Translations under genes and position numbers: made by a program
Part shown: positions 2,917 through 22,303 of the stretch, in pieces
Numbering within the stretch: position 1 is the first letter of the stretch
Layout of the letters: each line of letters begins with the position of its first letter
DNA from: a virus
Direction: 5' to 3' (one strand)
Virus record (IMG/VR): IMGVR_UViG_3300025313_000105
Coordinates: 1 to 27,460 of that record
DNA: 27,460 bases
The notes under the pieces: model-generated
What the model saw: the letters and a program-made list of their open reading frames with translations, nothing else
Database searches by the model: none
Told to the model about the DNA's origin: nothing

Positions 2917-2973
2917 CCGCCCGACGCCCGTTCGGTGGCCCGCTCCGATGTCGGGCCACCCTGACCGCCCGAC
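2913..2973 (+). repeat. 13-bp direct repeat flanking a hairpin
   Basis: CTGACCGCCCGAC occurs at 2913-2925, overlapping the stop of the preceding gene, and again at 2961-2973, just outside the right end of the inserted element. The copies bracket a terminator hairpin. Confidence 0.7.
2934..2960 (+). terminator. hairpin terminator of the WYL operon
   Basis: GGTGGCCCG (2934-2942) pairs perfectly with CGGGCCACC (2952-2960) across a 9-nt loop, 18 bases after the last stop codon of the rightward operon. There is no U-tract. Confidence 0.6.
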
Positions 2974-2981
2974 ACGACAGG

Positions 2982-3150
2982 TTGACTTCCTCCCCCTCCT
3001 GAAGGAGGGGGATTCCTACGGCTCGCGCTGTAGGGGTTCCTGCTTCAACGCCGACTGCCCGCCAGGAGAACTCCCTTGAGGTCTTACACCAGCTCCACAG
3101 GCCGAGACGGCCAGCCCGGCCGCCTTGATGTTGCGTGCCGCGTTGATGTC
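2982..3150 (-). ncRNA. predicted omega (guide) RNA of the tnpB element
   Basis: Placement rests on family knowledge: TnpB guide RNAs derive from the 3' end of tnpB and the element's right end, and their guide is the flanking DNA. Here the scaffold would include the hairpin at 2991-3012. The guide would begin at 2981 and run leftward (CCTGTCGTGTCGGGCGGTCA on the element strand). The 5' limit is a guess. Confidence 0.4.
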
Positions 3151-4206
3151 GCGGTCATGCGTGGCGCCGCAGTCACACGTCCACTCACGGACGTTCAGCG
3201 GCATCTTCGCCGCGATCGTGCCGCAGGTTCCGCACAGCTTCGAGCTGGGGAACCAGCGGTCAATCACGACGAGTTCGCGCCCGTACCAGGCGCACTTGTA
3301 CTCCAGCATGGAGCGGAGTTCCGTCCACGACGCGTCGGAGATGGCGCGCGCCAGCTTGTGGTTCTTCAGCAGGTTGCGGACGGTGAGGTCCTCGATTATG
3401 ACCGTTTGGTTCTCACGGACGAGTCGAGTAGTGAGCTTGTGCAGGAAGTCGCGGCGCCGGTCGGCGATCCGCGTGTGGACCTTGGCGACCCGCTTGCGGG
3501 CCTTCTCCCGGTTCGCGGAGCCCTTCGCCTTCCGGGACAGTTCCCGCTGCGCCTTCGCCAGGCGGGCGCGGTCGCGGCGTTCGTGCCGGGGGTTGGTGAC
3601 CTTCTCCCCGGTGGACAGGGTCACGAGGCTGGTTATGCCCGCGTCGATACCGACCGCGTTCGTCGTGGCCGGAGCCGGAGCAATGCGGTCATCGCACAGA
3701 AGGGAGACGAACCAGCGGCCCGCTGCGTCGCGGGACACGGTCACCGTCGTCGGGGCGCTGCCCTCCGGGAGCGGACGCGACCAGCGGATGTCCAACGGCT
3801 CCGCCATCTTCGCCAGTGTGAGTTGCCCCTCGCGCCACTTGAAAGCGGAGCGGGTGTACTCGGCCGACGCGCGGGACTTCTTCCGGCTCTTGTACCGGGG
3901 GTACTTGGCGCGCCTGGCGAAGAAGTTCCCGAACGCCGTCTGAAGGTGGCGCAGCGCTTGTTGGAGCGGGACGGAGGGCACCTCCGTCAGGAAGGCGAGT
4001 TCCTCGGTCTTCTTCCACTCCGTCAGTGCGGCCGACGACTGCACGTAGGAGACGCGGCGCTGCTCGCCGTACCAAGCGCGGGTGCGCTCCTCCAGCGCCT
4101 TGTTGTAGACGAGGCGGACGCAGCCGAACGTGCGCGACAGCTCTACTGCCTGCTCGTCCGTGGGGTAAAAGCGGTACTTGAAAGCCCGCTTGACCTGCTG
4201 CGTCAT
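3016..4206 (-). CDS. tnpB: TnpB, RNA-guided DNA endonuclease of an IS605-like element
   Basis: A 396-residue protein of normal length. It has an N-terminal helix-turn-helix/OrfB region (KRAFKYRFYPTDEQ, then RLVYNKALEE), a beta-rich central part, and a split RuvC nuclease. The likely catalytic acids are D188 in VGIDAGI, E272 in VIIEDL and D353 in HDRDINAARNI, all intact. A zinc ribbon lies at C325, C328, C344 and C346. TnpB cuts DNA complementary to the guide of its right-end RNA, which favours retention of the element. ATG 4206 follows a GTGAGGC leader. The C-terminal 30 residues (about 367-396) are variable. No tnpA partner is present. A long frame on the opposite strand is only its antisense shadow. 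Confidence 0.92.
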   Translation of the reverse strand: MTQQVKRAFKYRFYPTDEQAVELSRTFGCVRLVYNKALEERTRAWYGEQRRVSYVQSSAALTEWKKTEELAFLTEVPSVPLQQALRHLQTAFGNFFARRAKYPRYKSRKKSRASAEYTRSAFKWREGQLTLAKMAEPLDIRWSRPLPEGSAPTTVTVSRDAAGRWFVSLLCDDRIAPAPATTNAVGIDAGITSLVTLSTGEKVTNPRHERRDRARLAKAQRELSRKAKGSANREKARKRVAKVHTRIADRRRDFLHKLTTRLVRENQTVIIEDLTVRNLLKNHKLARAISDASWTELRSMLEYKCAWYGRELVVIDRWFPSSKLCGTCGTIAAKMPLNVREWTCDCGATHDRDINAARNIKAAGLAVSACGAGVRPQGSSPGGQSALKQEPLQREP

Positions 4207-5862: not shown

Positions 5863-7311
5863 GTGAACGCGCTCACGCTCGCCGCGGGCCGCCTGGAGGA
5901 TCAGGCGGAAGAGGCTGCCGTCGCGGAGCAGTACATCGATGATCCGGGCTTGTGGGCGCTGGAGAAGCTGGGCACGCATCTGTGGTCGAAGCAGGTGCAG
6001 ATCGCGGAGTCGGTGCGCGATCATCGGCAGACTGCGGTGCAGTCCTGTCACGGTGTCGGGAAGTCGTTTCTGGCCGCGCAGTTGGTGGCGTGGTGGTTGG
6101 ACATTCATCCGCCGGGTGAGGCGCGGGTGGTGACGACGGCTCCGACCGGGGATCAGGTGAAGGCGATCCTGTGGTCGGAGATCAATGGGGCGTTCGCGAA
6201 GGCGGAGTCGCGGGGCCGGCCGTTTCTGGGGCGGATCAATGAGACGGATTGGAAGCTGGGGAAGCGGCTGATTGCGTTCGGCCGGAAGCCGTCGGACTAC
6301 AACCCGCACGCTTTCCAGGGCATTCACGCCAAGTACGTTCTTGTGATCTTGGATGAAGCGTGCGGGATCAACAAGCAGTTCTGGACGGCGGCGCGCGCGA
6401 TCGCGACGGGCGAGCACTGCCGGATCCTTGCCGTCGGCAACCCTGACGATCCGGGTACCGAGTTCGCGCGGGTCTGTTCCGGTGGCCGGTGGAACACCAT
6501 CAAGATCTCCGCGTTCGACACCCCGAACTTCACGGGCGAGGAAGTGCCCGACGAGTTGCGGGAGATGCTCGTCAGCCACGCGTACGTGGAGGAGATGCGG
6601 CTGGAGTACGGCGAGGAGTCGCCGACCTACATCTCGAAGGTGCTGGGCGAGTTCCCGTTGGATGCGGAGGACGGGGTGGTGCGTCTGTCGAAGGTGCGGG
6701 CTTGCTGCCGGCCCCGCGATGTCCCGTGGGCGCCGGAACAGTTGGTGCCTGTCGAGTTGGGCGTCGACTTGGGTGCGGGCGGCGATGAGACGTGTATTCG
6801 GGAGCGGCGTGGTGTGGTGGTGGGCCGGGAGTGGCGGTTCCGTGAGCGGGATCCGAAGAGGACGGCGGCCCGGATTGTTGAGGCGATCAACGAGTCGCAG
6901 GCCGAGGTGGTGAAGGTGGACGCGATCGGTATCGGCTGGGGGATGGTCGGCATGCTGCAGGAGAAGCAGTCGCAGGGGCTACATCGGGCTCATGTGGTGG
7001 GGGTGAATGTGTCGGAGTCGTCGACGAGGCCGGATCGGTTCAAGAATTTGCGGTCGCAGATCTGGTGGGAGATTGGCCGGCAGTTGTCGGAGGATCAGGC
7101 GTGGGACATGTCTGGGTTGGAGGAGTCGGACCGGGAGCGGTTGGTGTCGCAGTTGACGGCGCCGAAGTACACGACGGACTCGGCGGGTCGGACGGTGGTG
7201 GAGCCGAAGGATGAGACGAAGAAGCGGATCGGCCGGAGTCCGGATAACGCAGATGCCCTGCTCCTAGCCTTTTACAGCGCGGGAGTCCCGCGGATGAGGT
7301 GGTTGCCTTGA
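5863..7311 (+). CDS. terL: terminase large subunit (packaging ATPase-nuclease)
   Basis: A 482-residue protein, a usual length for the family. In the N-terminal ATPase, Walker A is SCHGVGKS (61-68), Walker B is YVLVILDE (158-165, acids D164 and E165), and the coupling motif AVGNP is at 190-194. The C-terminal RuvC-like nuclease has D302 in GVDLG, D353 in KVDAIGIG, and D461/D464 in SPDNADALLLAF. The protein pumps DNA into the prohead and cuts the concatemer. The GTG start at 5863 follows the small subunit by 8 bases. Codons end mostly in G (GTG, GCG, CGG), unlike the head genes further right. The 3' end overlaps the next gene. Confidence 0.95.
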   Translation: MNALTLAAGRLEDQAEEAAVAEQYIDDPGLWALEKLGTHLWSKQVQIAESVRDHRQTAVQSCHGVGKSFLAAQLVAWWLDIHPPGEARVVTTAPTGDQVKAILWSEINGAFAKAESRGRPFLGRINETDWKLGKRLIAFGRKPSDYNPHAFQGIHAKYVLVILDEACGINKQFWTAARAIATGEHCRILAVGNPDDPGTEFARVCSGGRWNTIKISAFDTPNFTGEEVPDELREMLVSHAYVEEMRLEYGEESPTYISKVLGEFPLDAEDGVVRLSKVRACCRPRDVPWAPEQLVPVELGVDLGAGGDETCIRERRGVVVGREWRFRERDPKRTAARIVEAINESQAEVVKVDAIGIGWGMVGMLQEKQSQGLHRAHVVGVNVSESSTRPDRFKNLRSQIWWEIGRQLSEDQAWDMSGLEESDRERLVSQLTAPKYTTDSAGRTVVEPKDETKKRIGRSPDNADALLLAFYSAGVPRMRWLP

Positions 7312-7493
7312 GGAAGTGGAAGGTTCTGCCTCCGGTGCGTGCGGGTGTGGTGGGTTCTGTGCTGCTGGTGGCGGCCGGTCTTATGCTCATGTGCATCGGA
7401 TTGCACATGATCTATCCACCAGTGGGTTGGATGGCCGCCGGTCTCGGGGTGTGGTACCTGGAGTCGCGGATCTTCGGCACCCGCCGCGAGTAG
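7308..7493 (+). CDS. two-helix membrane protein between terminase and portal
   Basis: About 61 residues. TTG 7308 overlaps the terminase stop (TTGA) and has GAGGTGG 5-6 bases upstream. GTG 7299 in the same frame would add three residues but has a weaker ribosome site. After a basic KWK start, two hydrophobic segments (about 10-30 and 35-50, around AGVVGSVLLVAAGLMLMCIG and GWMAAGLGVWYL) predict two transmembrane helices, followed by a basic tail. Size and topology resemble holins, but the position inside the packaging module argues for another role. Function unknown. Confidence 0.65.
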   Translation: MRKWKVLPPVRAGVVGSVLLVAAGLMLMCIGLHMIYPPVGWMAAGLGVWYLESRIFGTRRE

Positions 7494-7502
7494 GAGGCCC
7501 TC

Positions 7503-9764
7503 GTGCCCCGGACCCTGTTCAGTGACCTCGCCAACGCGGTGACGACGTTCCGCAACAAGGCCCCCGTCCCCTATGTGGCGGGCGGCCGGTCTCGCGGTCT
7601 GATGCTGCCGTCGGTGTCGCCTGCGGGGATGGAGGCGCAGATGCGTGCCGCCGGTTCGGTGGGCACGCTGTTTGCGATCGTCGACCGGATCATCACCGCC
7701 TACAGCCAGGTGGAGTGGCATCTGTACAAGTCGGCGAAGTCGGGGCGGAAGGAGGACCGGGAGGAGGTCACGGATCATCCGGCGCTGACACTGTGGCAGT
7801 CGCCGAATCCGTTCATGACGGGCCCGGCGTTTCGGGAGACGACGCAGCAGCATGAGGAGCTGACTGGGGAGCAGTGGTGGGTGATTGTTCCGCATGAGCG
7901 GTTGAACATGCCGGGCGAGTTGTGGCCGGTGCGTCCGGACCGGATGGAGCCGGTGCCGGATGCGGAGGAGTATCTGCTGCGGTATGACTACCGGGCTCCG
8001 GGTGGCGGTGTGATTGAGCTGGGCCGTGAGCAGGTGGTGTTTCTGCGCAGGCCGAATCCGCTGGATCCGTACCGGGGTATGGGTGCGGTGCAGACGATCA
8101 TCGCAGACCTCGAAGGGTCCAGGCTGGCGGCGGAGTGGGTGCGGAACTTCTTCTACAACTCGGCCCAGCCGGGTGGCGTGATCGAGGTTGATCACAATCT
8201 GACGGATCCACAGTGGGACGAGTTCCAGGCCAGGTGGGCGGAGTCACACCGCGGTGTCAGCAACGCGCACCGGGTGGCGATGCTGGAGAACGGCATGAAG
8301 TGGGTGGACCGCCGCTTCACCATGCAGGAGTTGCAGCTCACAGATCTGCGCAAGGCGTCCGGCGAGATGATCCGGGAGGCGTTCGGGTTCCCGCGCCCCA
8401 TGCTCGGCACGGTCGACGACACGAACCGCGCGAACATGGAAGCCGCGGACACGATGATGGCGCGCTGGCTGTCGGCGCCGCGCCTGGAGCGCACGAAGCA
8501 GGCATTCAACACGCGGGTGCTGCCGCTGTACGGGCCGCTCGGCCGCGGTTACGAGCTTGACTACGACAACCCGGTGCCTGCGGACGTGAAGACGGATGCC
8601 GAGGTGCTGGCCGCGCAGGCGGGTGCCGCGCGGGCGCTGGTGTCTGCGGGCTATGACCGGGCTGCGGCGGCGCAGGCGGTTGGCCTGCCGGAGATGTCGT
8701 TCGATGTGGACCGTGAGTTGTTCTCGTCGATTGCCCGTGGTGCTCCATCGTTGGGGCCGCTGATGGTGACGATGCTCGGCTACAAACTGCCGGACAACTG
8801 GCGGGATCTGATGCCGAATCGGGGGCCGGAACCTGCGGGGCCGGCTGCCGCACCGTCGAATGCGTGGGGTGAGGCGGTCGCGGGTCTGCTGGGTGGCGGG
8901 GTCGCCGAGATCGAGAATGCGCCGCGCCTCGGGGCGAATGCGGCGCCCCGGTGGGCGCTCACTGCGGCGGTCGAGGATGGCGAAGGGGAAGAGGGCGAGG
9001 AGGAGGGCGAGGTGGAGGATGGCGATCCGGTCCGTCGGCAGTTCGAGACTGCGCTTGAGGATCTCCTCGACGGCTGGGTGCCGGTGGAGGACGCGTGGGT
9101 GGACGTCCTGGGGGATGCGGTTGAGGCGGCGGTGGATGACGAGGATGCGGGTGCGCTCGGTGCGTTGAGCGTGGACTCGGAGGAGGGTGCGGCCGTGCTG
9201 CGCCGGGCGCTCGCCGGCATGGCGAAGGCTGCGGCGGATCGGATGGTGGCGGAGGCTGCGGAGCAGGGCGTGGAGGTGGACACGCCCGAGCTGGAGGCGG
9301 GCGTGTCGAATCGGGTGTCTGTGGCGGGGATCCGGGCGGCGTACGGCTCAGAGTTGGCGGCGGTGGCTGTGGCGACTGCGGCGCTGCTGGGGTCGGAGTT
9401 GGCGCGGTCGGCTGCTACTGAGGCGCTGCGCTTGTTCACGCCGGGTGCGGTGGGCCGTCAGGTTGCGGACGGCGTGAAGTCGTTCCTGCGCGGGCTGAAG
9501 GGGCGTTTCAAGAAGGATCAGCTCGGTGGTGCGTTGCATCGGGCGCAGAACACGGGCCGGATTGCGGTACTGGAGGAGGCGCCGACTGCCCGGTATGTGG
9601 CTTCGGAGCGTGGGGACCGTAACTCATGTCAGCCGTGCAAGGACGTCGACGGCACCGAGTTCGACGACTTGGATGCGGTGCGGGCCGCGTACGGGACGGG
9701 CGGCTATCTGCGGTGCGAGGGCGGCATCCGCTGCCGGGGGACGGTTGTGGCCGTCTGGGAGTGA
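7503..9764 (+). CDS. portal protein fused to a MuF-like head morphogenesis domain
   Basis: A 753-residue protein, far longer than the usual 400-450 residues of HK97-type portals. Residues about 1-400 are a typical portal: SVGTLFAIVDRIITAYSQVEW, NPLDPYRGMGAV, NSAQPGGVI, and the conserved tail-proximal FGFPRPMLG. An acidic low-complexity linker lies near 489-505. Residues about 580-753 look like the Mu gpF/MuF minor-head family: ALHRAQNTGR, then C709-x2-C712 in NSCQPCKDVDG, then C738 and C744 in CEGGIRCRG. The portal ring is the DNA entry channel; MuF proteins sit on its inner face and can be ejected with the DNA. The GTG at 7503 follows AGGAGG. Codons end mostly in G, as in the terminase. Confidence 0.9.
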   Translation: MPRTLFSDLANAVTTFRNKAPVPYVAGGRSRGLMLPSVSPAGMEAQMRAAGSVGTLFAIVDRIITAYSQVEWHLYKSAKSGRKEDREEVTDHPALTLWQSPNPFMTGPAFRETTQQHEELTGEQWWVIVPHERLNMPGELWPVRPDRMEPVPDAEEYLLRYDYRAPGGGVIELGREQVVFLRRPNPLDPYRGMGAVQTIIADLEGSRLAAEWVRNFFYNSAQPGGVIEVDHNLTDPQWDEFQARWAESHRGVSNAHRVAMLENGMKWVDRRFTMQELQLTDLRKASGEMIREAFGFPRPMLGTVDDTNRANMEAADTMMARWLSAPRLERTKQAFNTRVLPLYGPLGRGYELDYDNPVPADVKTDAEVLAAQAGAARALVSAGYDRAAAAQAVGLPEMSFDVDRELFSSIARGAPSLGPLMVTMLGYKLPDNWRDLMPNRGPEPAGPAAAPSNAWGEAVAGLLGGGVAEIENAPRLGANAAPRWALTAAVEDGEGEEGEEEGEVEDGDPVRRQFETALEDLLDGWVPVEDAWVDVLGDAVEAAVDDEDAGALGALSVDSEEGAAVLRRALAGMAKAAADRMVAEAAEQGVEVDTPELEAGVSNRVSVAGIRAAYGSELAAVAVATAALLGSELARSAATEALRLFTPGAVGRQVADGVKSFLRGLKGRFKKDQLGGALHRAQNTGRIAVLEEAPTARYVASERGDRNSCQPCKDVDGTEFDDLDAVRAAYGTGGYLRCEGGIRCRGTVVAVWE

Positions 9765-9795
9765 GCGCGCCCGCGTCCGGCCTGTCGGTGTGTCG

Positions 9796-10095
9796 TCACG
9801 TGGTGTGCAGCCAGAAGCCATCTGGGTCGAAGTGCGCTGGTACCGGGCTCACGGTGAACCGGTGCAAGCATGCGCCCAAGTCGATCTCCAGCAGCCCGCC
9901 CGGACCTTGGTCGTATGTAGACCACACGACATGTTTCGCGGGTATGCCGCATTCGGGGCAGCCCGGGTAGTGCACGGACTCGCCGCCGTCGGCCAGCTGG
10001 TCGAGTCTTTCCGTCCGGATGTACTCGCGGCGGTTTTCCAGTGCCTTGTCGAAGGCGGTGGCCCGGTCGGGGTCGAGCGAGATGCGCCCGCTCAT
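9796..10095 (-). CDS. hypothetical protein with CxxC motif, last gene of leftward operon
   Basis: A 99-residue protein. ATG 10095 overlaps the upstream stop (ATGA), and the upstream Glu-Glu codons supply GAGGAG. A helical N-terminus (LDPDRATAFDKALENRREYIRTERLDQL) precedes a beta-rich half. That half has HYPGCPECGIPAKHV (one CxxC), then an EIDLGACLHRF strand and a conserved-looking HFDPDGFWLHTT end. The layout fits a small zinc-binding protein of Streptomyces phages. It ends 31 bases from the convergent portal gene, with no clear terminator between. Function unknown. Confidence 0.75.
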   Translation of the reverse strand: MSGRISLDPDRATAFDKALENRREYIRTERLDQLADGGESVHYPGCPECGIPAKHVVWSTYDQGPGGLLEIDLGACLHRFTVSPVPAHFDPDGFWLHTT

Positions 10096-10391
10096 GGGGT
10101 GGGCTCCTCGTCCTGCGCTTCGGTCGTGGTGCGCCATGCCGGGTCGGTCCACTCGTATCGGCGCACAGAGTCCGGCGGCATGCCGAGCGGCTGCTCTTCC
10201 ATCTCCTCGCGTACGGCTTTCGCGTAGTCGGCTGCGGCGATGAGTGCGGCGCCGAGTTCGCGGGCCTCCTCGTTGGTGAGGAAGCAGAGGTCGTCGGCAT
10301 GGAGGTAGACCTGTCCGGTGCCGTTGACGGTTTCGGGTCCGACGATGGCGCCGTCGTCGCCGAGGATGCTGGCGTACGCGTAGTTGCTCAC
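10092..10391 (-). CDS. hypothetical 99-aa accessory protein
   Basis: Starts at GTG 10391 within a GTGA overlap and ends in an ATGA overlap. The N-terminal half is beta-like (YAYASILGDDGAIVGPETV, then GQVYLHADDLCFLT). A helix follows (NEEARELGAALIAAADYAKAV). The tail is acidic and ends DEEPTP, whose codons are the next gene's ribosome site. No family recognised. It is translationally coupled on both sides. Confidence 0.72.
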   Translation of the reverse strand: MSNYAYASILGDDGAIVGPETVNGTGQVYLHADDLCFLTNEEARELGAALIAAADYAKAVREEMEEQPLGMPPDSVRRYEWTDPAWRTTTEAQDEEPTP

Positions 10392-10651
10392 GGCGTGGAC
10401 TCCTCGCCCGGATCTGCGAGATCGGCGGCGTGGCTCATCCCTCGGATGAAGTCGGGTGAGGCCGGGCTGCCCGGCACGTCAGCCTCGTCCCGCTCACGGC
10501 GAATCTCGCGTGCGACCTCGCGGGCGATGACGTCGTACACGAGCTGCCGGTGGTCGTGCAGGGGATAGAAGCCGAGTTCCTTGCGTAGGATGGCCCAGGC
10601 GCGGCTGACGGGCTCGGGTTCGTTGAGAACGTCGCGGAGTTCCCTGCTCAT
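10388..10651 (-). CDS. hypothetical 87-aa accessory protein
   Basis: ATG 10651 overlaps the preceding TGA and is served by GAGGAG from the upstream EESTT codons. An upstream in-frame start would overlap the neighbour and is not used. The sequence is helical and charged (RELRDVLNEPEPVSRAWAIL, then YDVIAREVAREIRRERDEAD) and ends EESTP. No motif recognised. Confidence 0.7.
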   Translation of the reverse strand: MSRELRDVLNEPEPVSRAWAILRKELGFYPLHDHRQLVYDVIAREVAREIRRERDEADVPGSPASPDFIRGMSHAADLADPGEESTP

Positions 10652-10905
10652 GTGGTCGACTCCTCGGGTGTGGGGATGATCGCGGATGGGCATCGACCTT
10701 GGCTGCATTCGTACGAGCAGCACGTCAGGCCCATGCAGCGGCCGGGACGGCAGTGCTCCGACCGGGGGTACGGCAACGGGATGCCGCGTGCCGGGTCGGT
10801 GCCACGGTCACCGGCGGCGAGCCGTTCGGGCTGGCGACAGACGCCCCAGTCGCAGGGCGTGCCGGGCTCGTAGTGCCAGCACGCCTGCGGATCGTCGCGG
10901 TTCAC
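10648..10905 (-). CDS. Cys-rich 85-aa accessory protein
   Basis: Starts at GTG 10905 overlapping the upstream TGA. Eight cysteines lie in a loosely repeated pattern: C9, C18 and C23 in the first third, then C52, C57, C62, C63, C67 and C72 around SEHCRPGRCMGLTCCSYECSQ. Such spacing suggests two zinc clusters or disulphides. It ends EESTT, with GAGGAG acting on the next gene. No signal peptide is visible, so zinc binding in the cytoplasm is the likelier reading. Cysteine numbering is approximate. Confidence 0.7.
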   Translation of the reverse strand: MNRDDPQACWHYEPGTPCDWGVCRQPERLAAGDRGTDPARGIPLPYPRSEHCRPGRCMGLTCCSYECSQGRCPSAIIPTPEESTT

Positions 10906-11174
10906 GGTTGCCCCTCGCCGTACAGTTCGTTTCGTAGCCGCAACTCCTCGGCCGTCAGGTCTTTGCCGTACAGGAACGCTGTGAAGATCGTGACCGTCAC
11001 GCCGTCCCGCTTGCGTTGGTGTGGGCGTACGGCGCGTTGACTGTCGTGGCCGGGTGGGAGATCACATCCCGAGGCGCCCCAATAGACGTCGCAGGTTTCG
11101 GATTCGTCGCGGCAGCCGCACAGGCACCCGTCGTCGTCTTCGCGGTGCGGGATCAGCTCACCCCAACGGCTCAC
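10902..11174 (-). CDS. Cys-rich 90-aa accessory protein
   Basis: GTG 11174 lies 2 bases beyond the upstream stop, with GAGGGG as ribosome site. The N-terminal half has CLCGCRDESETC, then a GCDLPPGHDSQ segment that resembles the C-x-L-P-x-G-H motif frequent in small Streptomyces phage zinc proteins. The second half is a basic strand (VTVTIFTAFLYGK) followed by a helix (LTAEELRLRNEL). A 301-residue extension upstream in this frame is an arginine-rich shadow of the neighbouring genes. Function unknown. Confidence 0.68.
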   Translation of the reverse strand: MSRWGELIPHREDDDGCLCGCRDESETCDVYWGASGCDLPPGHDSQRAVRPHQRKRDGVTVTIFTAFLYGKDLTAEELRLRNELYGEGQP

Positions 11175-11176
11175 GA

Positions 11177-11605
11177 CTACCCCTCGGCCTGGTCGAGCGC
11201 GAGGCTGATCCGGCGCGCCGATCCCTCGATGGCGAGCGCAGACGTCTCGTGACCCATCAACCGGGCGCTGGCCGCGTCGGCGTGGAGGGCGGCCACGGCC
11301 TTCTGCACTCGTTCCACGGCGGCGAGCAGTACGGGGCGGGTGGGTTTCTCGTACGGCTCCCACCATGCGGGCGGCTCCACCAGCAACGGGACGGTACGGA
11401 GTTCGAGGGCCGCGCAATCCTCCCGCTCGTCGAGCAGCACGCGCCCGTTCTCGCCTCGCACCATGACCTCGACACGGATGGCGCGTCCCGTGTCGGCGTC
11501 GACGATGGTGAGGTCGCCGTCTATGGGTACGTCGCGGGAGTCGATGTGGTTGGCGGCGAGCCAGTCGCAGAGTTCCTTGCGGCGGCCGTCCAGTTCGAGC
11601 GCCAT
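11177..11605 (-). CDS. hypothetical 142-aa accessory protein
   Basis: ATG 11605 lies 2 bases after the upstream stop, with GGAGG (from the CCGGAGGCGTGA tail of the previous gene) as ribosome site. The N-terminal half is beta-rich (LTIVDADTGRAIRVEVMVRG, then GRVLLDEREDCAALELRTV). The C-terminal half is a long helix (RPVLLAAVERVQKAVAALHADAAS and following). No family recognised. It lies in the centre of the leftward operon. Confidence 0.7.
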   Translation of the reverse strand: MALELDGRRKELCDWLAANHIDSRDVPIDGDLTIVDADTGRAIRVEVMVRGENGRVLLDEREDCAALELRTVPLLVEPPAWWEPYEKPTRPVLLAAVERVQKAVAALHADAASARLMGHETSALAIEGSARRISLALDQAEG

Positions 11606-11607
11606 GG

Positions 11608-12339
11608 TCACGCCTCCGGGGTGTCGGGCTTGTACAGGGCGAGGGCACTGAGGTGCGGCTCGACCACCGCGAACGCGCGCTCGCCGGGAGTCGGCTCCGG
11701 GTCCGGTACAGGCAGGCCGAGATCCTCGCGCAGCCATTCGGGCATGGGCGTCGGAGCGGGCCCAACAACCTTGACGAGGAGCCTCGGCTCCACCAAGCGC
11801 GTGCCAAGGATTCTCTCGGTGAGCGCGGTCATGTGCTCCTGGATGATCGGCGGCATGATGCTCTGCGAAGGCGCGGGGCGTTCGGCCTCCGGTCGATCCA
11901 GCGCCGCCCGCTGCTCCTCGGTGAGCCCGTACCCCTCGGCCAGCGCGAGCAGGGTGGGGCAGTCGTTGACGTGCGGAGTGTTGGGTTCGGAGCAGTAGTC
12001 GGCGCCGTCGTAGCCGCAGCCTTCACAGACGTAGTCGTCGTACCACCTGCGATCCCTGGGCGCGTGTACAGCGAGGATCTTCCGGTCGGCGGCACACCGG
12101 CGGAGGACGGCGGCCGGGTCATGAAGGGCGATGTGCCGCGCGTCTTCGATGCGCTCGACTCCGCCGCCCTCGTGGCCATGGCCGACCACGTCGACCTCGC
12201 CGGGTACGGTGCCGACGCCCGCGTCGAAGTCGGTCTGCCAGTTGTACTCGGTGACGTGCCAGGGGCCGGGCGTTGCGGCTCTGGCGGCGGCCTCGCGCTC
12301 GTCGATCTGCTGGACGATCCAGCCGTGCAAGTCAGGCAT
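11608..12339 (-). CDS. DUF6221-like protein with extended C-terminus
   Basis: A 243-residue protein. The first 95 residues follow the DUF6221 pattern common in Streptomyces genomes and phages: MPDLHGWIVQQIDEREAAAR, TPGPWHV, a Gly-rich loop, then ARHIALHDPAAVLRRCAADRK. A Cys patch follows (YVCEGCGYDGADYC, then NDCPTLLALA). A C-terminal part of about 100 residues (TLALTERILG...) is not part of that family. ATG 12339 is chosen for its AGGAGGAGA ribosome site, formed by the Glu codons of the overlapping upstream gene. The biochemical role of DUF6221 is unknown to me. Confidence 0.75.
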   Translation of the reverse strand: MPDLHGWIVQQIDEREAAARAATPGPWHVTEYNWQTDFDAGVGTVPGEVDVVGHGHEGGGVERIEDARHIALHDPAAVLRRCAADRKILAVHAPRDRRWYDDYVCEGCGYDGADYCSEPNTPHVNDCPTLLALAEGYGLTEEQRAALDRPEAERPAPSQSIMPPIIQEHMTALTERILGTRLVEPRLLVKVVGPAPTPMPEWLREDLGLPVPDPEPTPGERAFAVVEPHLSALALYKPDTPEA

Positions 12340-12556
12340 CGGTCTCCTCCTCGTCAAGCGGCTTCACCCGGTGTGCGTTGTCAGGCTTGCCATGCAGAGC
12401 CAGCCAGCGCGACCGGAATTCCTCCACCTGCGCCTCGGAGAGTGAAGCGGTCCAGGTCGAGGGTTCGAGAGTGAGGCGCCGGTCGGGGAGTCGCTCCCAC
12501 GAGTACGGCTTACCGAACAGCCACACGGTGCGCAGCGCGTCAGGGTCACGGATCAC
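12332..12556 (-). CDS. hypothetical 74-aa accessory protein
   Basis: GTG 12556 overlaps the upstream TGA (GTGA). The sequence has a strand-rich N-terminus (DPDALRTVWLFGKPYSWERLPDR), a helix (SLSEAQVEEFRSRWLALHGK) and ends DEEETDA, whose GAGGAGGAGA serves the DUF6221-like gene it overlaps by 8 bases. A longer extension upstream in this frame is antisense-like and excluded. No family recognised. Confidence 0.65.
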   Translation of the reverse strand: MIRDPDALRTVWLFGKPYSWERLPDRRLTLEPSTWTASLSEAQVEEFRSRWLALHGKPDNAHRVKPLDEEETDA

Positions 12557-12780
12557 GAGGACTTCCGGTGCTTGTAGTCGAACATGCCGCAGCTGGCACA
12601 CAGGCCACTGTCGGCAGAGGTGGCGGGCACCCGGTAGGCGGAGCATGTGGCGCCGTCCACAGGCTTCCGTCGGGCGAGGAACCGGTTCACGGCGTCGCAG
12701 TACTTGGAGAACGCGACCGCCAGCCAGGGCATGGCGAGGAAGAGGGCCGCGAGCAGGCCGAGCGGGATCAGGTAGAACAC
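12553..12780 (-). CDS. small membrane protein with C-terminal CxxC
   Basis: A 75-residue protein. GTG 12780 follows GAGGAGCAGAC. The first 24 residues (FYLIPLGLLAALFLAMPWLAVAF) form one transmembrane helix without a basic start, suggesting an N-out or signal-anchor topology that cannot be settled here. A basic stretch follows (NRFLARRKPVDG). The end carries C46 and a CASCGMFDYKH knuckle. It is the only predicted membrane protein in the leftward operon. Function unknown. Confidence 0.65.
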   Translation of the reverse strand: MFYLIPLGLLAALFLAMPWLAVAFSKYCDAVNRFLARRKPVDGATCSAYRVPATSADSGLCASCGMFDYKHRKSS

Positions 12781-12789
12781 GTCTGCTCC

Positions 12790-12987
12790 TCAGTCGCCGT
12801 TGCGGTCGTCGATGACGTACGCGCTGCCATCCCACGAGAACGACAGGGTGTTGTCGTCGACCCCGAGGTACTGCCTGCCGTGCGGGGCGAGGTCCACGCC
12901 GTGCGTGCGGGTGATGTCGGCCATCGCGTCGAGTGCGGAACCGAGCCTCCGGAGCTGCTCGGCGGTCAGGTTGAGAGGAGCGCTCAC
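12790..12987 (-). CDS. hypothetical 65-aa accessory protein
   Basis: Starts at GTG 12987 within a GTGA overlap with the large upstream gene, served by GGGGAG in that gene's GESTP codons. It has a helix (TAEQLRRLGSALDAMADITRT) and a short beta region ending FSWDGSAYVIDDRNGD. This resembles the small helix-plus-hairpin orphans of actinophages. No function can be assigned. Confidence 0.65.
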   Translation of the reverse strand: MSAPLNLTAEQLRRLGSALDAMADITRTHGVDLAPHGRQYLGVDDNTLSFSWDGSAYVIDDRNGD

Positions 12988-14972
12988 GGGGTCGACTCCC
13001 CTTCAGCCGGCGCACGGTGCGGGGTGGCGCCGGCGTGGTGGTCGGTCCACAGCGTCTTGCCCGCGTCGCCCATGCGGGGCCCGACGTGGTTCTCCGGGTG
13101 TCCGGCCTCGCGGGTGCACTGGACGGGGCCGCCGCCGAGGACGTGGGGGCCTTCGATGGTGGCGGTGCAGTCGGGCTTGCCGTCGGGCATGGGTTGCTCC
13201 CGGGATGTGTAGTGGACGCTGGTGCCGCAGCCGCAGGGCGTGTCGTACGTGCAGGTGCAGATGGTGCGGCCGTCTGCGTCGGTGAGCACCGCGGGACTGT
13301 TGTGGGCTTTGGCGATATAGCGGAGCACGGTGGTGATCGCGGATCGGGTCGCCGTGTTCACGAAGGCGCCGACCTGGACGGGCCCTTCGGTGGCGTCGAG
13401 GTGCCGGGCGGCGAGGATGGTTGATCCGTCGGGCGGGTCGATGGCGATGCCCTTCGGGCTGGGTGCGGTCTGCCCCTTCGGCTGACCGAGGGCGGAGACG
13501 ATCGCGTCGGCGAGCGCGGCCACCCACTCCTGCGTGTCCGGGGACTCTTCAAGCAGGTACGAGACGCTGTCGAGGCCGTAGTCGTCGAAGGGGAAGCGGC
13601 GAATCGTGTCGGCGACGACTTCGCGGCGGTCGTTGGTGGCCATGGGGAGGGGCTCCTCGGGGTGGCGTTCGGCAGCATGCCGGTCCCGTGCACGCTCGGC
13701 GGACTCCTGCGTGTAGTGGTCGAGCGACAACCAGCCGTCGCAGGTGCTGGCGCCCCAGCAGCGGAACACCCAGGCGCTCTCACCCCGGTCGTTGCGGTAC
13801 GGCTCGACGACCAGCGGATCACCAGACGTCTCACCCTGGGCGATGTGCTCCGGGCGGGCGAAGGGAACGAAGCCGGACGGGGGTTCGGCCGCGCCCGGCT
13901 CCTCCGGCTCTTCCAGCGCGCGGGTGACCGCATCGAGGAGGCGCCGCACCTGGCCCGGCTCCAGCGTCATCAGCAGCCAGGAATCCCGGAGCCCCGTCAC
14001 GCGGGCGACGGTCGCCCACGCCTGCCGGTCCTCTTCGAGACGCCGCACGTGGTTCATCTCGAAGCACTCGCCGGCCGTCGCCGTGTAGCCGATGACCCGC
14101 CTCGCCACATCGAGGCGCTCCTCAGCGGACGCCTGATTGAAGCGGGCGATCCACTGACCGGGGGTGGGGACCGTGAGCGGGTCCCAGCCATGCTCCTCGC
14201 CTGCGTGGAGGCGGGTGAGTTCGGCCTCGGCCTGCCGCGCGCGCTTCTGCGCCGCGTCCCGCTCGTCCAAGAATCCGCGCGCCGCCAGCTCGCGAACAGT
14301 GGCGAGTTCGGTGATCCGGGGTGCGATGTCGTCACCGACCTCGTCGGCGGTGAAGTAGCCGTCGCGTACGAGGGCTTCGCGGACGAGACGGAGGCGCGCC
14401 TCGGCGTTGTCTGCGCGGGTGCGCTGCTGCTCGGTCAGCAGCTCGGCCGGGACTTCGGACATGCGCGTGAGCGTCTCGGCGGGGATCGGCGTGCACACGG
14501 TGGTGCCCTCTATGTCCCGGGCGGGCGGGATGCCCCCGAGGACGGCGTGCACGTTCTCGGCCTGGCCGATCCGGTCCATGGCCTGTGTGGCGCCCCGGAA
14601 CCAGTCGGGGTCGATGCGGGCCATCTTCCGGATGGCGTCGTGCAGTTCACGCTCGGGCAGCGAACGGACCGTGGCGGCCGGGCTGGTCCGCCAGTCTTCG
14701 GCGAGTTCGAGGATGAGCGCCGCTGACTCCGCGTCGTAGCCGACGACTTGGTACAGGGCCTGGTCGGCGATGTTGACCTGATCGGCGCCCACCAGGGCCG
14801 CGCCCCAGCCGTGTTCGGTGAGGACGTTGAGCGCCATCTGGGCGCGGGCCGGGGCGGTGTCGACGCGGACGCCGTGGCCGAGTTGGCGGGTGAGTTGGAT
14901 GTCGCCGAGGCCGGGGCAGTCGTGCCCGCCATCGGGGAGGCCGGGCTGGAGGCAGGTGGCGCAGACGCTCAC
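12984..14972 (-). CDS. 662-aa multi-module accessory protein with zinc motifs
   Basis: GTG 14972 overlaps the upstream TGA (GTGA). Modules in order are: an N-terminal zinc knuckle (C4, C7, H17, C19); a helical domain (about 40-140); a charged helical and coiled-coil region (about 165-260); a domain with GQWIARFNQASAEERLDVARR (about 272-350); a beta/Cys module with WVFRCWGASTCDGWLSLDHY (about 400-435); a helical module from M444; and a C-terminal Cys-rich part (C572, C574, C580, C582, C602, C619, then GHPENH). Residues 439-444 (EEPLPM) encode GAGGAG followed by an in-frame ATG at 13643, the same signal that joins separate genes nearby. An internal start or a gene fusion is therefore likely. 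Function unknown. Confidence 0.75.
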   Translation of the reverse strand: MSVCATCLQPGLPDGGHDCPGLGDIQLTRQLGHGVRVDTAPARAQMALNVLTEHGWGAALVGADQVNIADQALYQVVGYDAESAALILELAEDWRTSPAATVRSLPERELHDAIRKMARIDPDWFRGATQAMDRIGQAENVHAVLGGIPPARDIEGTTVCTPIPAETLTRMSEVPAELLTEQQRTRADNAEARLRLVREALVRDGYFTADEVGDDIAPRITELATVRELAARGFLDERDAAQKRARQAEAELTRLHAGEEHGWDPLTVPTPGQWIARFNQASAEERLDVARRVIGYTATAGECFEMNHVRRLEEDRQAWATVARVTGLRDSWLLMTLEPGQVRRLLDAVTRALEEPEEPGAAEPPSGFVPFARPEHIAQGETSGDPLVVEPYRNDRGESAWVFRCWGASTCDGWLSLDHYTQESAERARDRHAAERHPEEPLPMATNDRREVVADTIRRFPFDDYGLDSVSYLLEESPDTQEWVAALADAIVSALGQPKGQTAPSPKGIAIDPPDGSTILAARHLDATEGPVQVGAFVNTATRSAITTVLRYIAKAHNSPAVLTDADGRTICTCTYDTPCGCGTSVHYTSREQPMPDGKPDCTATIEGPHVLGGGPVQCTREAGHPENHVGPRMGDAGKTLWTDHHAGATPHRAPAEGESTP

Positions 14973-15685
14973 GGGGTCTCCTCGGTGCGGTCGTGGCGCC
15001 CGCCGTGCGGGATCGCGGCCAGTTCCCGCAGTCGCGGCAGGTGTTCGGCCGTAGTACCGAAGGAGCGGGACCGTTCGCAGCGGGCGCACTTGCCGTAGGT
15101 GTCGTGCTCCAGCACGGGCCACTCGCACACGCAGGTGGCGTGCGCGGACTTGATGGCCGAACAGTCGTGATGGAACAGGCCGGGCTCGCCCTTCCACCAG
15201 CGCCCGCGTGGGCCGCCCCACTGGTGGGAGATGTTGACCTGGTCGCCCTTGACGGAGCGTTGGCCGCACCAGGCGCAGCGGGTGAGGAGTCGCCGCCGGA
15301 GCTGCTGGTAGGTACGGAACTGGATCTTGTAATGGTGGATGTGGCAGCGCCAGCCGCGCGTGCGCCTCCACGTGCCGTCGCGGCGTTGGACGCGCTTGCT
15401 GCACACGGACAGGCCATCGCGTCCGCCGGGCTCGCGATGCCACACAGTGATCAGGGACGGGAAGTAGTAGTCGCGGCCGGCCAGGCGCCAGAACGCGCTG
15501 TAGCTGGAGGGGCGCCACCAGGGGAATGCTCCGTCGCGGTGGGGCGGGTCCTGGCCGCAGCTGGGGGTGCAGGTGTGGTGGAGGCGGATGCGCCAGCGCA
15601 CGGACGCGTGGCCCGCCGCGGGAAGAGGCGAGCGCTCTGGCCAGGGGCGGCGGATCTCGAACGCGACGGTCAGCGGGTCATGCAC
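14969..15685 (-). CDS. Cys/His-rich protein, first gene of the leftward operon
   Basis: A 238-residue protein. GTG 15685 follows AGGAGG by about 7 bases. It is strongly basic and aromatic, with several Cys/His pairs: HHTCTPSCG (about 36-44), CAWCGQRS (about 136), FHHDC (about 170), CVCEWPVLEHD and CARCERSRS (about 200). The pattern suggests three zinc-binding sites and nucleic-acid contact. The layout CAWCG...FHHDC also resembles a degraded HNH fold, but no clear catalytic HNH triad is visible. It starts the twelve-gene operon and ends EETP with the coupling signal for the 662-aa gene. Confidence 0.72.
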   Translation of the reverse strand: MHDPLTVAFEIRRPWPERSPLPAAGHASVRWRIRLHHTCTPSCGQDPPHRDGAFPWWRPSSYSAFWRLAGRDYYFPSLITVWHREPGGRDGLSVCSKRVQRRDGTWRRTRGWRCHIHHYKIQFRTYQQLRRRLLTRCAWCGQRSVKGDQVNISHQWGGPRGRWWKGEPGLFHHDCSAIKSAHATCVCEWPVLEHDTYGKCARCERSRSFGTTAEHLPRLRELAAIPHGGRHDRTEETP

Positions 15686-15853
15686 GGGGGGCCTCCTTCG
15701 TGGTGGTGGTGCCGCATTCGGCGGAGGGGAATCTCAGGGGCGGCGTGCAGCCTGTGACCTGCGTCAACTTCCCCAGATGCCGGGGCACTTGGACCCATCC
15801 CGGCGTAAAATGACCATGAGAAGACCCCCGCGACTGCGTCAACAGTCCGGGGG
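15686..15853 (+). promoter_or_regulatory. divergent control region with a leader hairpin before the nuclease gene
   Basis: This gap separates the leftward operon from the rightward nuclease. TAAAAT at 15806-15811 is a good -10, but no -35 lies at the right distance. A strong hairpin follows: CCCCCG (15825-15830) and GACTG (15832-15836) pair with CAGTC (15843-15847) and CGGGGG (15848-15853) around a 6-nt loop. The hairpin ends directly before ATG 15855 and would hide its ribosome site, so it probably acts as a 5' leader element or attenuator for translation from ATG 15882. Confidence 0.5.
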
Positions 15854-15881
15854 CATGGCCGACCTGAGAAAGCAGATCGAC

Positions 15882-16706
15882 ATGACCGAGATTACCCTCG
15901 CCTGTGCGCGCTCGACGAAGCGGCGCCCCCACGGCAGCACGGGAACTCCAACGGGCTACATCACCCATCGGGGGAAGCGGGAGCCTGTCTGCGGGCCGTG
16001 CATGGATGCCTGGCGCGCCAAGGAAGCTGAACGGAAGGCGAACATGAGCCCCGTCTTCCTGGCGCGCGAGCGGGCGAAGAGCGCTGAGCGGGCCCGTCGG
16101 AAGCGGATGGCGACGAGCCCCTGCCTGGCCCCCGCTCCAAAGCACCCGAACGGACAGCAAGGAACACTCGACGGATACCTCGCACACGTAGCGGCTGGAC
16201 AGTGGCCATGCGGCGAATGCCGGGAGGCTGCTGATGCGCACGACTTCGGCCCGCTGTGCGCGCGACCGACTGCGACGCATCCGCAGGGGCGAACCGGAAC
16301 CCGGGCCGGGTATCACGCGCACATGTATGCGGGTGAGCCTGCGTGCACAGCATGCCTGAATGGAAACGCGGCAGCTCAGGCGCGACGTCGCGTGGACGAC
16401 CCCGAGTTGGCCCTTCGCGGTTCTCTGTGGTCTAAATACCGGCTGTCGCTGGAGGCGTACAAGGCCATGCTCGACGCGCAGGGCGGTGCGTGCGCCATAT
16501 GCAGGATTGACTCCCCCACGGACATCCGCACCAGCCGTTTCCACGTCGACCACGATCATGCTTGCTGCCCTACGTCGCGGAAGACCTGCGGTAAGTGCAT
16601 CAGGGGTCTGCTCTGCCACGCTTGTAACACCGCGCTCGGCAACTTCCAGGACGACCCGGGGCGGCTGCGTGCTGCTCTCGTCTACCTGGCGGGCCATCGG
16701 AGTTAG
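15882..16706 (+). CDS. endonuclease VII family nuclease with three zinc modules
   Basis: 274 residues from ATG 15882. ATG 15855 is in frame but lies against a stable hairpin. Residues 8-40, 81-113 and 126-158 are three copies of a module of exactly 33 residues: C-x9-G-x2-G-T-x2-G-Y-x2-H-x7-C-x2-C. Residues about 190-272 match the recombination endonuclease VII group of His-Me/HNH nucleases: C204-x2-C207, FHVDHDH (220-226), C236-x2-C239, GLLCHACN (242-249), then a LGNFQDDPGRL helix. Family members resolve branched DNA or act next to terminase during packaging. The modules probably bind zinc and DNA (inference). The stop overlaps the convergent next gene by 4 bases. Confidence 0.9.
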   Translation: MTEITLACARSTKRRPHGSTGTPTGYITHRGKREPVCGPCMDAWRAKEAERKANMSPVFLARERAKSAERARRKRMATSPCLAPAPKHPNGQQGTLDGYLAHVAAGQWPCGECREAADAHDFGPLCARPTATHPQGRTGTRAGYHAHMYAGEPACTACLNGNAAAQARRRVDDPELALRGSLWSKYRLSLEAYKAMLDAQGGACAICRIDSPTDIRTSRFHVDHDHACCPTSRKTCGKCIRGLLCHACNTALGNFQDDPGRLRAALVYLAGHRS

Positions 16707-17224
16707 CCTCCTCCTCGCTCCTGCTCGCCCGGCTGCTTCGCGTCGCGGAGTCGGGCGAGTTCGGCTTCGACGTCGGTGAGCCGGTCTTCGTGGTCGGTGA
16801 CGCGCCGGTTGATCTGCCGCGCCCACTGGGCGACTTGAGCGAACCCGAGCGTCATGCTGTTGACGATCTGGCGTTCCTCGCTGGTGAGTTCGTCTAGGCG
16901 GACGTTCTCGGTGAGGTCGTGGCCCTTGTCGAGGGCGTTGCCTGCCTTCTCGATCTGCTTCCCGGCGAGGGGGATTTGCTGGGCGGCTGTGACGATGCGG
17001 TAGCCGGTTTCGGGGACGTTCTCGACGGCGCGTGCGTCGTTCTTCAGGAGCCGGTTTGCGGCTTGTCGGGCTGCGGCTTGGATGCGGGGGCGTTGGGTTT
17101 TGGGGTTGAGGTTGAGGGCTTTGGCGAGGGTGTCGTAGGTGATGGTGCCGTTAACGGGGGTTTTCTTGAACAGGTCGTAGACGGTTCGCCATTGAGCGGT
17201 GTCGCCTTTGGGTTTGAAGGGCAT
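16703..17224 (-). CDS. winged-helix-like protein with C-terminal coiled coil
   Basis: A 173-residue protein. ATG 17224 follows AGGAAGGAGA. Residues about 10-75 resemble a winged helix: TVYDLFKKTPVNGTITYDTLAKAL, then an ARQAANRLLKND recognition-like helix, then the VENVPETGYRIV wing. The rest is helical, with a C-terminal coiled coil (INRRVTDHEDRLTDVEAELARLRD). A longer upstream frame extends into the AT-rich promoter region and is not used. It reads leftward between two rightward virion genes and starts beside an AT-rich island with several inverted repeats, so it is a candidate regulator of the head operon or of itself. Confidence 0.75.
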   Translation of the reverse strand: MPFKPKGDTAQWRTVYDLFKKTPVNGTITYDTLAKALNLNPKTQRPRIQAAARQAANRLLKNDARAVENVPETGYRIVTAAQQIPLAGKQIEKAGNALDKGHDLTENVRLDELTSEERQIVNSMTLGFAQVAQWARQINRRVTDHEDRLTDVEAELARLRDAKQPGEQERGGG

Positions 17225-17324: not shown

Positions 17325-17436
17325 CAATGTATCGCATAAATATGCAACATGTGGCCGGATCCGGCGTGCACAGCTATGTAATAGCAGGTCAGAGGCATAA
17401 TGAACACGTTCAAAACTTGCTCCCGTAGTGCACAAT
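17325..17436. promoter_or_regulatory. AT-rich divergent regulatory island with inverted repeats
   Basis: This is the least GC-rich stretch of the window. It holds GCATA-AA-TATGC (17334-17345), the perfect palindrome GCCGGATCCGGC (17354-17365) and TGAAC-AC-GTTCA (17401-17412). A rightward promoter could be TTCAAA (17409-17414) with CACAAT (17431-17436) at 16-bp spacing, which would overlap the last repeat. The head operon and the leftward winged-helix gene diverge from here. Confidence 0.5.
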
Positions 17437-17576: not shown

Positions 17577-18947
17577 ATGCCGTTCATTGACCTCCCCGAC
17601 CGCATCCCCGGCCTGCGCATGCGCGCCCGGGGCGACCAGCCCTGGTATCAGTTCAAGAACATCGCCGCCGACGAGGCAGAGCTGTTCCTGTACGACGAGA
17701 TCGGGGGCTGGGGCACCCTCGCTGAGGACTTCATCGCCGAGCTGAAGACCATCACCGCACCGAAGCTCCGGGTGAGAATGTCGAGCCCTGGCGGTTCGGT
17801 GTTCGAGGGCATTGCTCTGGCCAACGCCCTGCGCACTCACCCGGCCGAGGTCACCGTCCAGGTGGACGGCATCGCCGCATCGATCGCATCAGTCATCGCC
17901 ATGGCCGGCGACCGGGTAGTGGTCCAGCCCCAAGCGATGATCATGTGTCATGACGCGTCCGGGATGTGTCTCGGGGACGCGCAGGACATGCAGGACATGG
18001 CGGATCTCCTCGACAAGATCTCCGGAAACATCGCCGACGCCTACGCGGCGAAGGCGGGCGGCACCCGCGAGGAGTGGCGCGAACTCATGCGCGCCGAGAC
18101 CTGGTACACCGCCGAGGAAGCCGTCGAGGCGGGACTCGCGGACGAGTGCATGCCGATCCCCAAGCGCGGCGAGGACCAGCCCGAGCCCGAACCGGAGATG
18201 CGGAAGTCGTTCGACTTCGCCGCCTACGGCTATCAGGGCCCGAAGCAGCCGGAAGACAAGTCGACGCTGACCATCGACATCGGGACCGCGCTCGGCGAGC
18301 AGATCGCGAACGCCCTCCGCGCCTCCGTCACCCCCGAACCCGCCACGCCGGCCGTCACCGACACCGCCGTCGCCCCCCACAACACGGCAGTCGAAGACGG
18401 CACATGGGACAAGGGCGTCAACGTTGGCCGCCTCCCCTCTCCACTGCCGGTGGCCACCGTGAAGAAGGTGTACGCGGTCTACGACGAGACCCGCGCCGAG
18501 GACGGCAGCCTCCCCAAGGACGCCTGCAACCTCCCGCACCACTTCGTCGACGCCGACGGCACTCCCGGCGCCGCGTCCGTCGCGGCCGTACGCAACGCCC
18601 TCGCCCGCCTCCCGCAGACCGAAGGCCTCACGGACACCGAGCGCGACGAAGCCGAACGCCACCTTCAGGCACACCTCGACGCCTACAACGACGGCGCCGA
18701 CCAGACGGCCACCACCCCCGAAGCACAGCGGATCGTCGTGCAACTCGACACGGCCGCACTCGCCGCAGCCCTCATCGAAGCCAGCCGGCCCGCGCCCGCC
18801 ACGGCCACCCCCGAGCCCATCGCAGCAACCGGACTCGCCGCACGCACCGCCCACCTCAAACCCGCCCGACCGGCAGCCCCCACCTGGCGGGACCGCGTCG
18901 CCCACCTGAACCCGCCGTCCAGCGCGACGACGCAACCCGCCCCATAA
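17577..18947 (+). CDS. ClpP-like head maturation protease with C-terminal extension
   Basis: A 456-residue protein. Residues about 30-195 are a ClpP/S14-type serine protease: SSPGGSVFEG (69-78, oxyanion loop), catalytic S102 in GIAASIAS, H125 in MCHDASG, and a likely acid around D143-D146. Such enzymes process the scaffold and capsid delta domain in HK97-like heads. After a Pro/Glu-rich linker come about 100 residues around CNLPHHFVDADGTPG and LTDTERDEAERHLQAHLDAY, then an Ala/Pro-rich tail. This extension is a candidate scaffold moiety, since no separate scaffold gene is seen (inference). ATG 17577 is followed by the capsid gene after 10 bases. Confidence 0.88.
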   Translation: MPFIDLPDRIPGLRMRARGDQPWYQFKNIAADEAELFLYDEIGGWGTLAEDFIAELKTITAPKLRVRMSSPGGSVFEGIALANALRTHPAEVTVQVDGIAASIASVIAMAGDRVVVQPQAMIMCHDASGMCLGDAQDMQDMADLLDKISGNIADAYAAKAGGTREEWRELMRAETWYTAEEAVEAGLADECMPIPKRGEDQPEPEPEMRKSFDFAAYGYQGPKQPEDKSTLTIDIGTALGEQIANALRASVTPEPATPAVTDTAVAPHNTAVEDGTWDKGVNVGRLPSPLPVATVKKVYAVYDETRAEDGSLPKDACNLPHHFVDADGTPGAASVAAVRNALARLPQTEGLTDTERDEAERHLQAHLDAYNDGADQTATTPEAQRIVVQLDTAALAAALIEASRPAPATATPEPIAATGLAARTAHLKPARPAAPTWRDRVAHLNPPSSATTQPAP

Positions 18948-21873: not shown

Positions 21874-22302
21874 ATGGCGGGGTCGGTGACGCTGACGTCG
21901 TCCGCGGTGGCGGGCGGGGCGGGGGTACGCAAGTACAGCCTCGACTGGACATCGGACGCGTCCGGCGACGTGTCCGGGAATTCGGTGACCCTGCCCCCGG
22001 GGACGATCATCGCCGTCACCTTCACCCCGGACTCCGGCGGCACGCAGCCGACCGACCTGTACGACGTGACGATGACCTGCGATGTGCATGGGGTCAACAT
22101 CTTGGACAACGGTGCGGGCACGAGCATCGGCGCGAACCTGTCCAACGTCACGGGCACACACAAGGTGCCGTTCATTCAGGGCGCCACGGAGACGTTCGTG
22201 AGGCAGTGGGCTCACGGTGGCGGCTACACCCTCGTGGTGGCTGCCGCCGGTAACGCCAAGGGCGGCGTCGTGGACGTCTACATCGCGCCGGGGGTGCTCT
22301 GA
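21874..22302 (+). CDS. small beta-rich virion protein
   Basis: A 142-residue protein. ATG 21874 comes one base after the previous stop (TGACATG). The protein is a likely beta-sandwich: RKYSLDWTSDASGDVSGNSV, IAVTFTPDSGGTQPTDLYDV, GVNILDNGAGTSIGANLS, and a hydrophobic C-terminal strand (GVVDVYIAPGVL). Proteins of this type follow the capsid in many siphoviruses and are structural by position. There is no catalytic motif. Confidence 0.65.
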   Translation: MAGSVTLTSSAVAGGAGVRKYSLDWTSDASGDVSGNSVTLPPGTIIAVTFTPDSGGTQPTDLYDVTMTCDVHGVNILDNGAGTSIGANLSNVTGTHKVPFIQGATETFVRQWAHGGGYTLVVAAAGNAKGGVVDVYIAPGVL

Positions 22303-22303
22303 C

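Follow-up and report, generated by a model that had tools for sequence, protein, structure and literature searches.

Leftward genes between portal and protease

The window analyzed here is the entire IMG/VR virus record IMGVR_UViG_3300025313_000105 (27,460 bases), which is classed as linear and hence is perhaps a fragment. Between its rightward genes for the portal protein and the ClpP-type head maturation protease lies an island of leftward genes, m1–m12, which fill positions 9796–15685 (Table 1). A first-pass annotation, made from the DNA letters alone, had described twelve leftward genes at this place, read from one start near 15700. Coordinates, gene overlaps, and ribosome-binding sites bear this out. 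The first gene, m12, starts with a GTG at 15685 and has AAGGAGG just upstream, 7 of the 11 junctions within m1–m12 are exact 4-bp ATGA/GTGA stop/start overlaps, and at nearly all junctions a GAGGAG-like ribosome-binding site lies inside the preceding gene. This pattern is far from chance, despite a GC (guanine–cytosine)-rich sequence that is full of spurious open reading frames (ORFs), and shows tight coupling of the genes in translation. An 18-nt repeat, which comprises the ribosome-binding site and the stop/start, recurs at five island junctions (10089, 10385, 10645, 12981, and 14966), and such a standardized junction could ease the swapping of genes. A similar junction sequence is used by leftward blocks elsewhere.

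A coding-potential caller recognized 10 of the 12 island genes; the two that it missed, cysteine-rich m4 and m5, are backed as genes by their junctions. Aligned relatives of m1, m2, m6, m7, and m10 carry fewer nonsynonymous than synonymous changes (for m1, dN 0.09 and dS 0.46), which indicates that these proteins are under selection; m8 is too diverged for such a reading (dN 0.73, dS 0.97).

The predicted cargo proteins are small, and about half are rich in cysteine and histidine (m4, m5, m7, m9, m11, and m12), so that the earlier description "mostly Cys/His-rich" holds for that half only. These proteins possibly bind zinc. Three further proteins of that description could be identified: the small membrane protein is m9, with a single membrane helix as judged by eye; the DUF6221-like protein is m7, which matches PF19730 at 1.2e-17 (65.1 bits against a curated cut-off of 27.6); and the multi-module protein is m11, of which modules 431–495 and 507–562 are fused, in opposite order, in one 120-aa protein of relative L032. 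Further m11 modules match non-structural proteins of G003 and G004, and m12 has weak similarity to endonuclease VII (0.02).

Table 1. Coordinates of the island genes, their flanking genes, and candidate regulatory sites in the window.
Feature	Position	Strand	Description
Portal protein gene	7503..9764	+	Left flank of island; identified by tblastn to annotated portals; relatives 42–55% identical
m1	9796..10095	-	99 aa; backbone family; always next to portal where found beside portal
m2	10092..10391	-	99 aa; backbone family; 74–76% identity in L005, L007; 70% in L326
m3	10388..10651	-	87 aa; without relative among compared phages
m4	10648..10905	-	85 aa; nine Cys; no relative in compared phages; 4-bp overlap and ribosome-binding site at both ends
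m5	10902..11168	-	88 aa; five Cys; 4-bp overlap with m4; no family match
m6	11177..11605	-	142 aa; backbone family; 41% over 76 aa at colinear place in L005
m7, DUF6221	11608..12339	-	243 aa; backbone family; 48–52% in L005, L032, L008, L007
m8	12332..12556	-	74 aa; backbone family; 36–50% local identity, colinear, in L005, L008, L032, L007
m9	12553..12780	-	75 aa; single hydrophobic stretch, four Cys; read from sequence and junctions
m10	12790..12987	-	65 aa; backbone family; 57–78% in L005, L032, L139, L314, L319
m11	12984..14972	-	662 aa; multi-module
m12	14969..15685	-	238 aa; 11 Cys, 17 His; first gene of operon; 4-bp overlap with m11
GCAGGTCAGAGGC-like element, 1 mismatch	15750..15762	-	About 65 bp upstream of m12; candidate regulatory site
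Endonuclease VII-family HNH nuclease	15822..16706	+	Start uncertain; PF02945 8.6e-22, 77.3 bits vs cut-off 23.6
Winged-helix-like protein	16703..17224	-	173 aa; island right-end gene; fold unconfirmed, pLDDT 57
Inverted repeat TCGCATA-AA-TATGCAA	17332..17347	.	Sequence only; candidate operator for winged-helix protein
GCAGGTCAGAGGC element	17384..17396	+	Upstream of protease; candidate promoter-proximal site
ClpP-type head maturation protease	17577..18947	+	Right flank of island; PF00574 (Pfam CLP_protease) 1.5e-28; phrog_2976 1.5e-77

Occupancy of the junction in related phages

Many viral contigs contain relatives of the window's terminase, portal, protease, and capsid, and no near match to the window was found among 50,697 phage records. 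Relatives of the terminase are also present in the genomes of Streptomyces, Actinacidiphila, and Amycolatopsis, which makes an actinomycete the likely host.

We measured the portal–protease gap by ORF extension over 61 portal relatives. It is shorter than 340 bp in 49 of them and spans 0.9–6.6 kb in the other 12, eight of which contain leftward genes; about 48 of the 61 have no island. A few of the short gaps, L044 for example, contain a rightward gene ahead of the protease, the gap of L035 is occupied by a relative of the window nuclease, and that of G002 contains only one leftward gene, which is lipoprotein-like. Leftward islands are carried by the nearest terminase relatives (L005, L032, L008, L007, and L030; TerL 87–90% identical), and phages with a similar terminase but a different portal type have no leftward island after the portal. 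Further islands were found through searches with m1, m2, and m10 (L313, L314, L319, and L326) and through a motif search (L139). Altogether, 11 contigs including the window share island families at this junction.

In the synteny comparison proposed with the first-pass annotation, the gap is thus empty in most relatives and occupied by variable islands in the nearest clade. Had most relatives carried the same genes at this place, the island would have been an ordinary core feature; it is instead limited to the nearest clade, with variable content, and we reject the core reading, since most portal relatives are without an island. Like a moron, the island is present in some and absent from other close relatives at the same junction.

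A shared backbone exchanged between head types

From the protease toward the portal, those of the shared families that an island has follow the order right-end DNA-binding gene, m11 module, m10, m8, m7 (DUF6221), m6, m2, and m1. We noted one departure from it, in L314, where m10 precedes the gene with the m11 module. The remaining island genes are swapped in and out between relatives, and content differs strongly among near relatives. The m1 proteins of the window and L005 are 86–87% identical (84–85% in L032; a relative is also present in L313), whereas the portals share 49% and the proteases 42% identity, and comparison at the DNA level gave the same patchwork. In the portal tree, the window lies outside the clade of the other island carriers, and leftward occupancy changes about five times. 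The high identity of m1 relative to portal and protease, together with this tree, argues that the block passes from one head type to another and recurs at a single junction. Judged by these comparisons, the portal–protease block is an exchangeable accessory gene cassette, neither core nor a set of misplaced early genes.

The same contigs bear on whether the arrangement is an assembly chimera or an inversion artefact. Rearrangements do occur in this zone, as in the prophage-like contig G019, where the terminase–portal cassette stands inverted with respect to protease and capsid; however, 10 further contigs, drawn from several metagenomes, show the window's arrangement, with genes in colinear order and the same region at the right end, which makes an artefact highly improbable.

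Within the compared set, five window genes (m3, m4, m5, m9, and m12) are without a relative. Searches of the 50,697 deposited phage records gave no hit for m2 and m7 and, for m11, a hit to one short module. Neither m1 nor m10 was found in 296 Streptomyces genomes and DUF6221 relatives occur in 14 of 121, so that DUF6221 is the sole island family tested that is at home in chromosomes. Besides DUF6221 and the nuclease, no curated family could be named for the window island proteins. PADLOC, applied to 51 proteins of the islands and related gap loci taken together, returned only helix–turn–helix (HTH), methyltransferase, and nuclease-type models. For DUF6221, the structure model (predicted local distance difference test score, pLDDT, 66) gave no fold match in the PDB, a literature search found nothing, and a DksA-like similarity was discarded as not significant (E 0.2).

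The right end of the islands

The nuclease and the leftward winged-helix gene that had been placed beyond the operon are both present, but the nuclease gene is rightward, which makes the winged-helix gene a separate leftward unit. The gene beside the protease encodes a winged-helix protein in the window and L314, and an Xre-type HTH protein in L005, L032, L030, L139, and L319; the L005/L030 protein has profile similarity to the P22 C2 repressor domain (8e-4). The winged-helix gene has a 96% identical copy in the L314 island and a 27% relative outside the gap in G002. Hits of its product to PDB sequences were dismissed as coiled-coil chance matches, and its structure model is too poor to use.

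The intergenic stretch between the right-end regulator gene and the protease contains GCAGGTCAGAGGC or a variant in all seven regulator-headed islands. Six have 0–1 mismatches; L032 has three and keeps CGCAGGTCAG. Within two mismatches, GCAGGTCAGAGGC occurs in 0 of the 57 portal–protease loci used for comparison, almost all of which have no island. This distribution suggests that GCAGGTCAGAGGC at the protease is part of a rightward promoter region that would restart late transcription. The nearby inverted repeat is perfect in L314 (TCGCATA-AC-TATGCGA).

The motif CGCAGGTCAGAGGC, located in the window at 17384–17396 (+) and, with one mismatch, at 15750–15762 (-), recurs in many viral contigs (L132–L251 and others), with at least 124 copies. 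Among the matches listed, AAC or TTC stands before 89 of 124 copies; 43 of the 124 fall in no ORF of 60 aa, compared with 2 of 53 for a reversed control pattern. Its one appearance in the literature searched was in a phiJoe int-attP primer.

Proposed function of the island

The reading that we favor, with a probability of roughly two in three, is that the island is a regulator-headed, moron-like accessory operon at a recurrent portal–protease insertion site in temperate phages of the Streptomyces type. The island would be transcribed from its own leftward promoters under the control of the DNA-binding protein encoded at its right end, of the Xre type in L005, L032, L030, L139, and L319 and of the winged-helix type in the window and L314. 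Its expression would be independent of the late genes and would probably take place in the prophage. The divergent region beside the protease may supply a rightward promoter, through which the head genes downstream of the island would still be made, and late transcription from the terminase side would converge on the island and damp it in lytic growth. The cargo probably acts on functions of the host or of competing phages.

The first-pass annotation had likened the set to an early or host-takeover module placed in a late region. Its accessory character stands, as the gap is empty in most relatives and m2 and m7 are unmatched; the displacement is not supported. Under such an explanation, early lytic genes would have been transferred to the late region and would be switched on immediately after infection. 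Small cysteine-rich proteins are indeed common among phage early genes, and the non-structural arms of G002, G003, and G004 contain relatives of DUF6221, the winged-helix protein, and the m11 modules (DUF6221 and the winged-helix protein in that of G002). However, G001 and G004, which are complete or near-complete, bear an island and keep their genes for replication, recombination, and regulation elsewhere, in a region that is mostly rightward. The island stands at the portal–protease junction in all 11 contigs, most relatives live without it, and its content varies strongly between near relatives. We therefore find no support for a displaced early region and regard an early module in general as unlikely. 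The arm relatives of the G002 type indicate a gene stock common to non-structural arms, with the island itself as a separate accessory locus. Integrases are encoded by G001, G002, and G004, and these together with the separate early region count in favor of an accessory operon.

A self-mobile element, that is, a homing nuclease, a transposon-like insertion, or a satellite inserted between portal and protease, appears improbable. Nucleases of the HNH type do occur around this site: the window, L005, and L035 have them in the island or beside the portal, and G001 and L313 have them between TerL and portal. However, most islands are without a nuclease of the window's family, and no repeats bracketing the island were found. 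Integrase, transposase, and replication genes are absent among the annotated window island genes, and none appeared in the Pfam tally of the wider set; the integrase and replication genes that a satellite of the phage-inducible chromosomal island type would bring are thus lacking in both.

Several observations weigh against the accessory-operon reading. The window record, a 27-kb fragment, has no integrase gene, and the temperate nature of this virus is inferred from its relatives. GC content is 0.68–0.72 over the island and 0.64–0.71 in the flanks, so that the deviant base composition of morons is absent and composition gives no sign of foreign origin. A search for sigma-70-like promoters found none, the two terminator-like sites detected are no more than shuffled sequences give, and hairpins at the portal/m1 end are no better than those of shuffles, for which reason a terminator there was rejected. 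With promoter and terminator searches thus without result, the promoter-restart and operator steps are ones that we infer. Finally, the opposing nuclease gene parts the winged-helix gene from m12, and the winged-helix gene therefore cannot head the m12 transcript in the window.

Relation to known systems

Like morons and lysogenic-conversion genes, the island occurs in some close relatives only, sits between core genes, and is apparently independent of the surrounding operon. Classical morons comprise one or two genes with a recognizable promoter and terminator, often with deviant GC content. Unlike these, the window island is long, regulator-headed, and of the same GC content as the host genome, and no terminator was found for it.

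Two phage groups offer the closest layouts. Cluster O mycobacteriophages (Corndog and relatives) carry non-structural genes between portal and capsid maturation protease, and small leftward genes interrupt their rightward structural operon, one of which has a leftward promoter of its own and encodes a predicted DNA-binding protein (PMC4351075). There, the genes named between portal and protease are those for methyl- and glycosyltransferases, and each leftward set is very small, whereas the window has 12 leftward genes of other families in one long coupled operon. Microbacterium phages of Cluster EJ (Goodman and Johann) contain four leftward genes within the structural operon (PMC7302621). The likeness is one of layout: Cluster EJ phages are lytic, without temperate features, whereas relatives of the window encode integrases and have islands of up to about 19 genes. 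Leftward genes in a structural operon are hence a known phenomenon; what is new is that a regulator-headed operon of such length, with coupled genes and a conserved backbone, sits at one junction.

In L315, L316, and L317, at about 6300–14300, an m10-bearing operon runs against flanking amidase and tail genes. It resembles the island in having m10, DUF6221 (L316), and, headed by an HTH gene, an m11-like protein (L317), and in its orientation against late neighbors; it differs in its lysis/tail site and in its cargo, in which glycosyltransferases, a 2OG-Fe(II) oxygenase, and a methyltransferase predominate, a content that hints at lysogenic conversion. The shared stock of HTH head, m11 modules, m10, and DUF6221 raises the tentative idea of a general class of regulator-headed operons, which would lie antisense at late junctions (portal/protease, or lysis/tail in L315–L317), be expressed in the lysogen, be shut off by late transcription running against them, and bring a promoter that restarts the late genes which they interrupt.

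If the accessory-operon reading is correct, a fixed spot in the head-gene block of temperate actinophages stores long regulator-headed operons of small proteins, which are exchanged across head types. Such spots would be good hunting grounds for genes of lysogenic conversion, superinfection exclusion, and counter-defence; m2 and m7 are unmatched among the deposited phage genomes searched. The antisense layout also offers a testable model of how a foreign operon can be inserted into late genes without loss of head assembly.

Other features of the window and related contigs

A second small leftward block lies upstream of the terminase at 489–1473 (-), with a first gene that is HTH-like by weak Pfam hits; G001, G003, G004, and G005 also have leftward blocks upstream of the terminase that resemble it. 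The leftward HNH-like genes between terminase and portal are located at 40005–40619 (-) in G001 and at 6827–7453 (-) in L313 (reversed). In the integrase-bearing contig G019 (L003), region 22223–25608 of the flipped contig contains a small terminase-like gene, the terminase, and the portal in inverted orientation relative to protease, capsid, and tail genes. An inversion linking this contig to the window was considered and rejected, as the inverted cassette is the terminase–portal one itself and the early genes belong to other families. Finally, the window encodes an IS605-type TnpB at 2971–4206 (-) (Pfam OrfB_IS605, 1.6e-34), and the 3′ end of this gene has a sub-threshold match to HgcC RNA (23.8 bits against a gathering threshold of 50), which is possibly a guide RNA.

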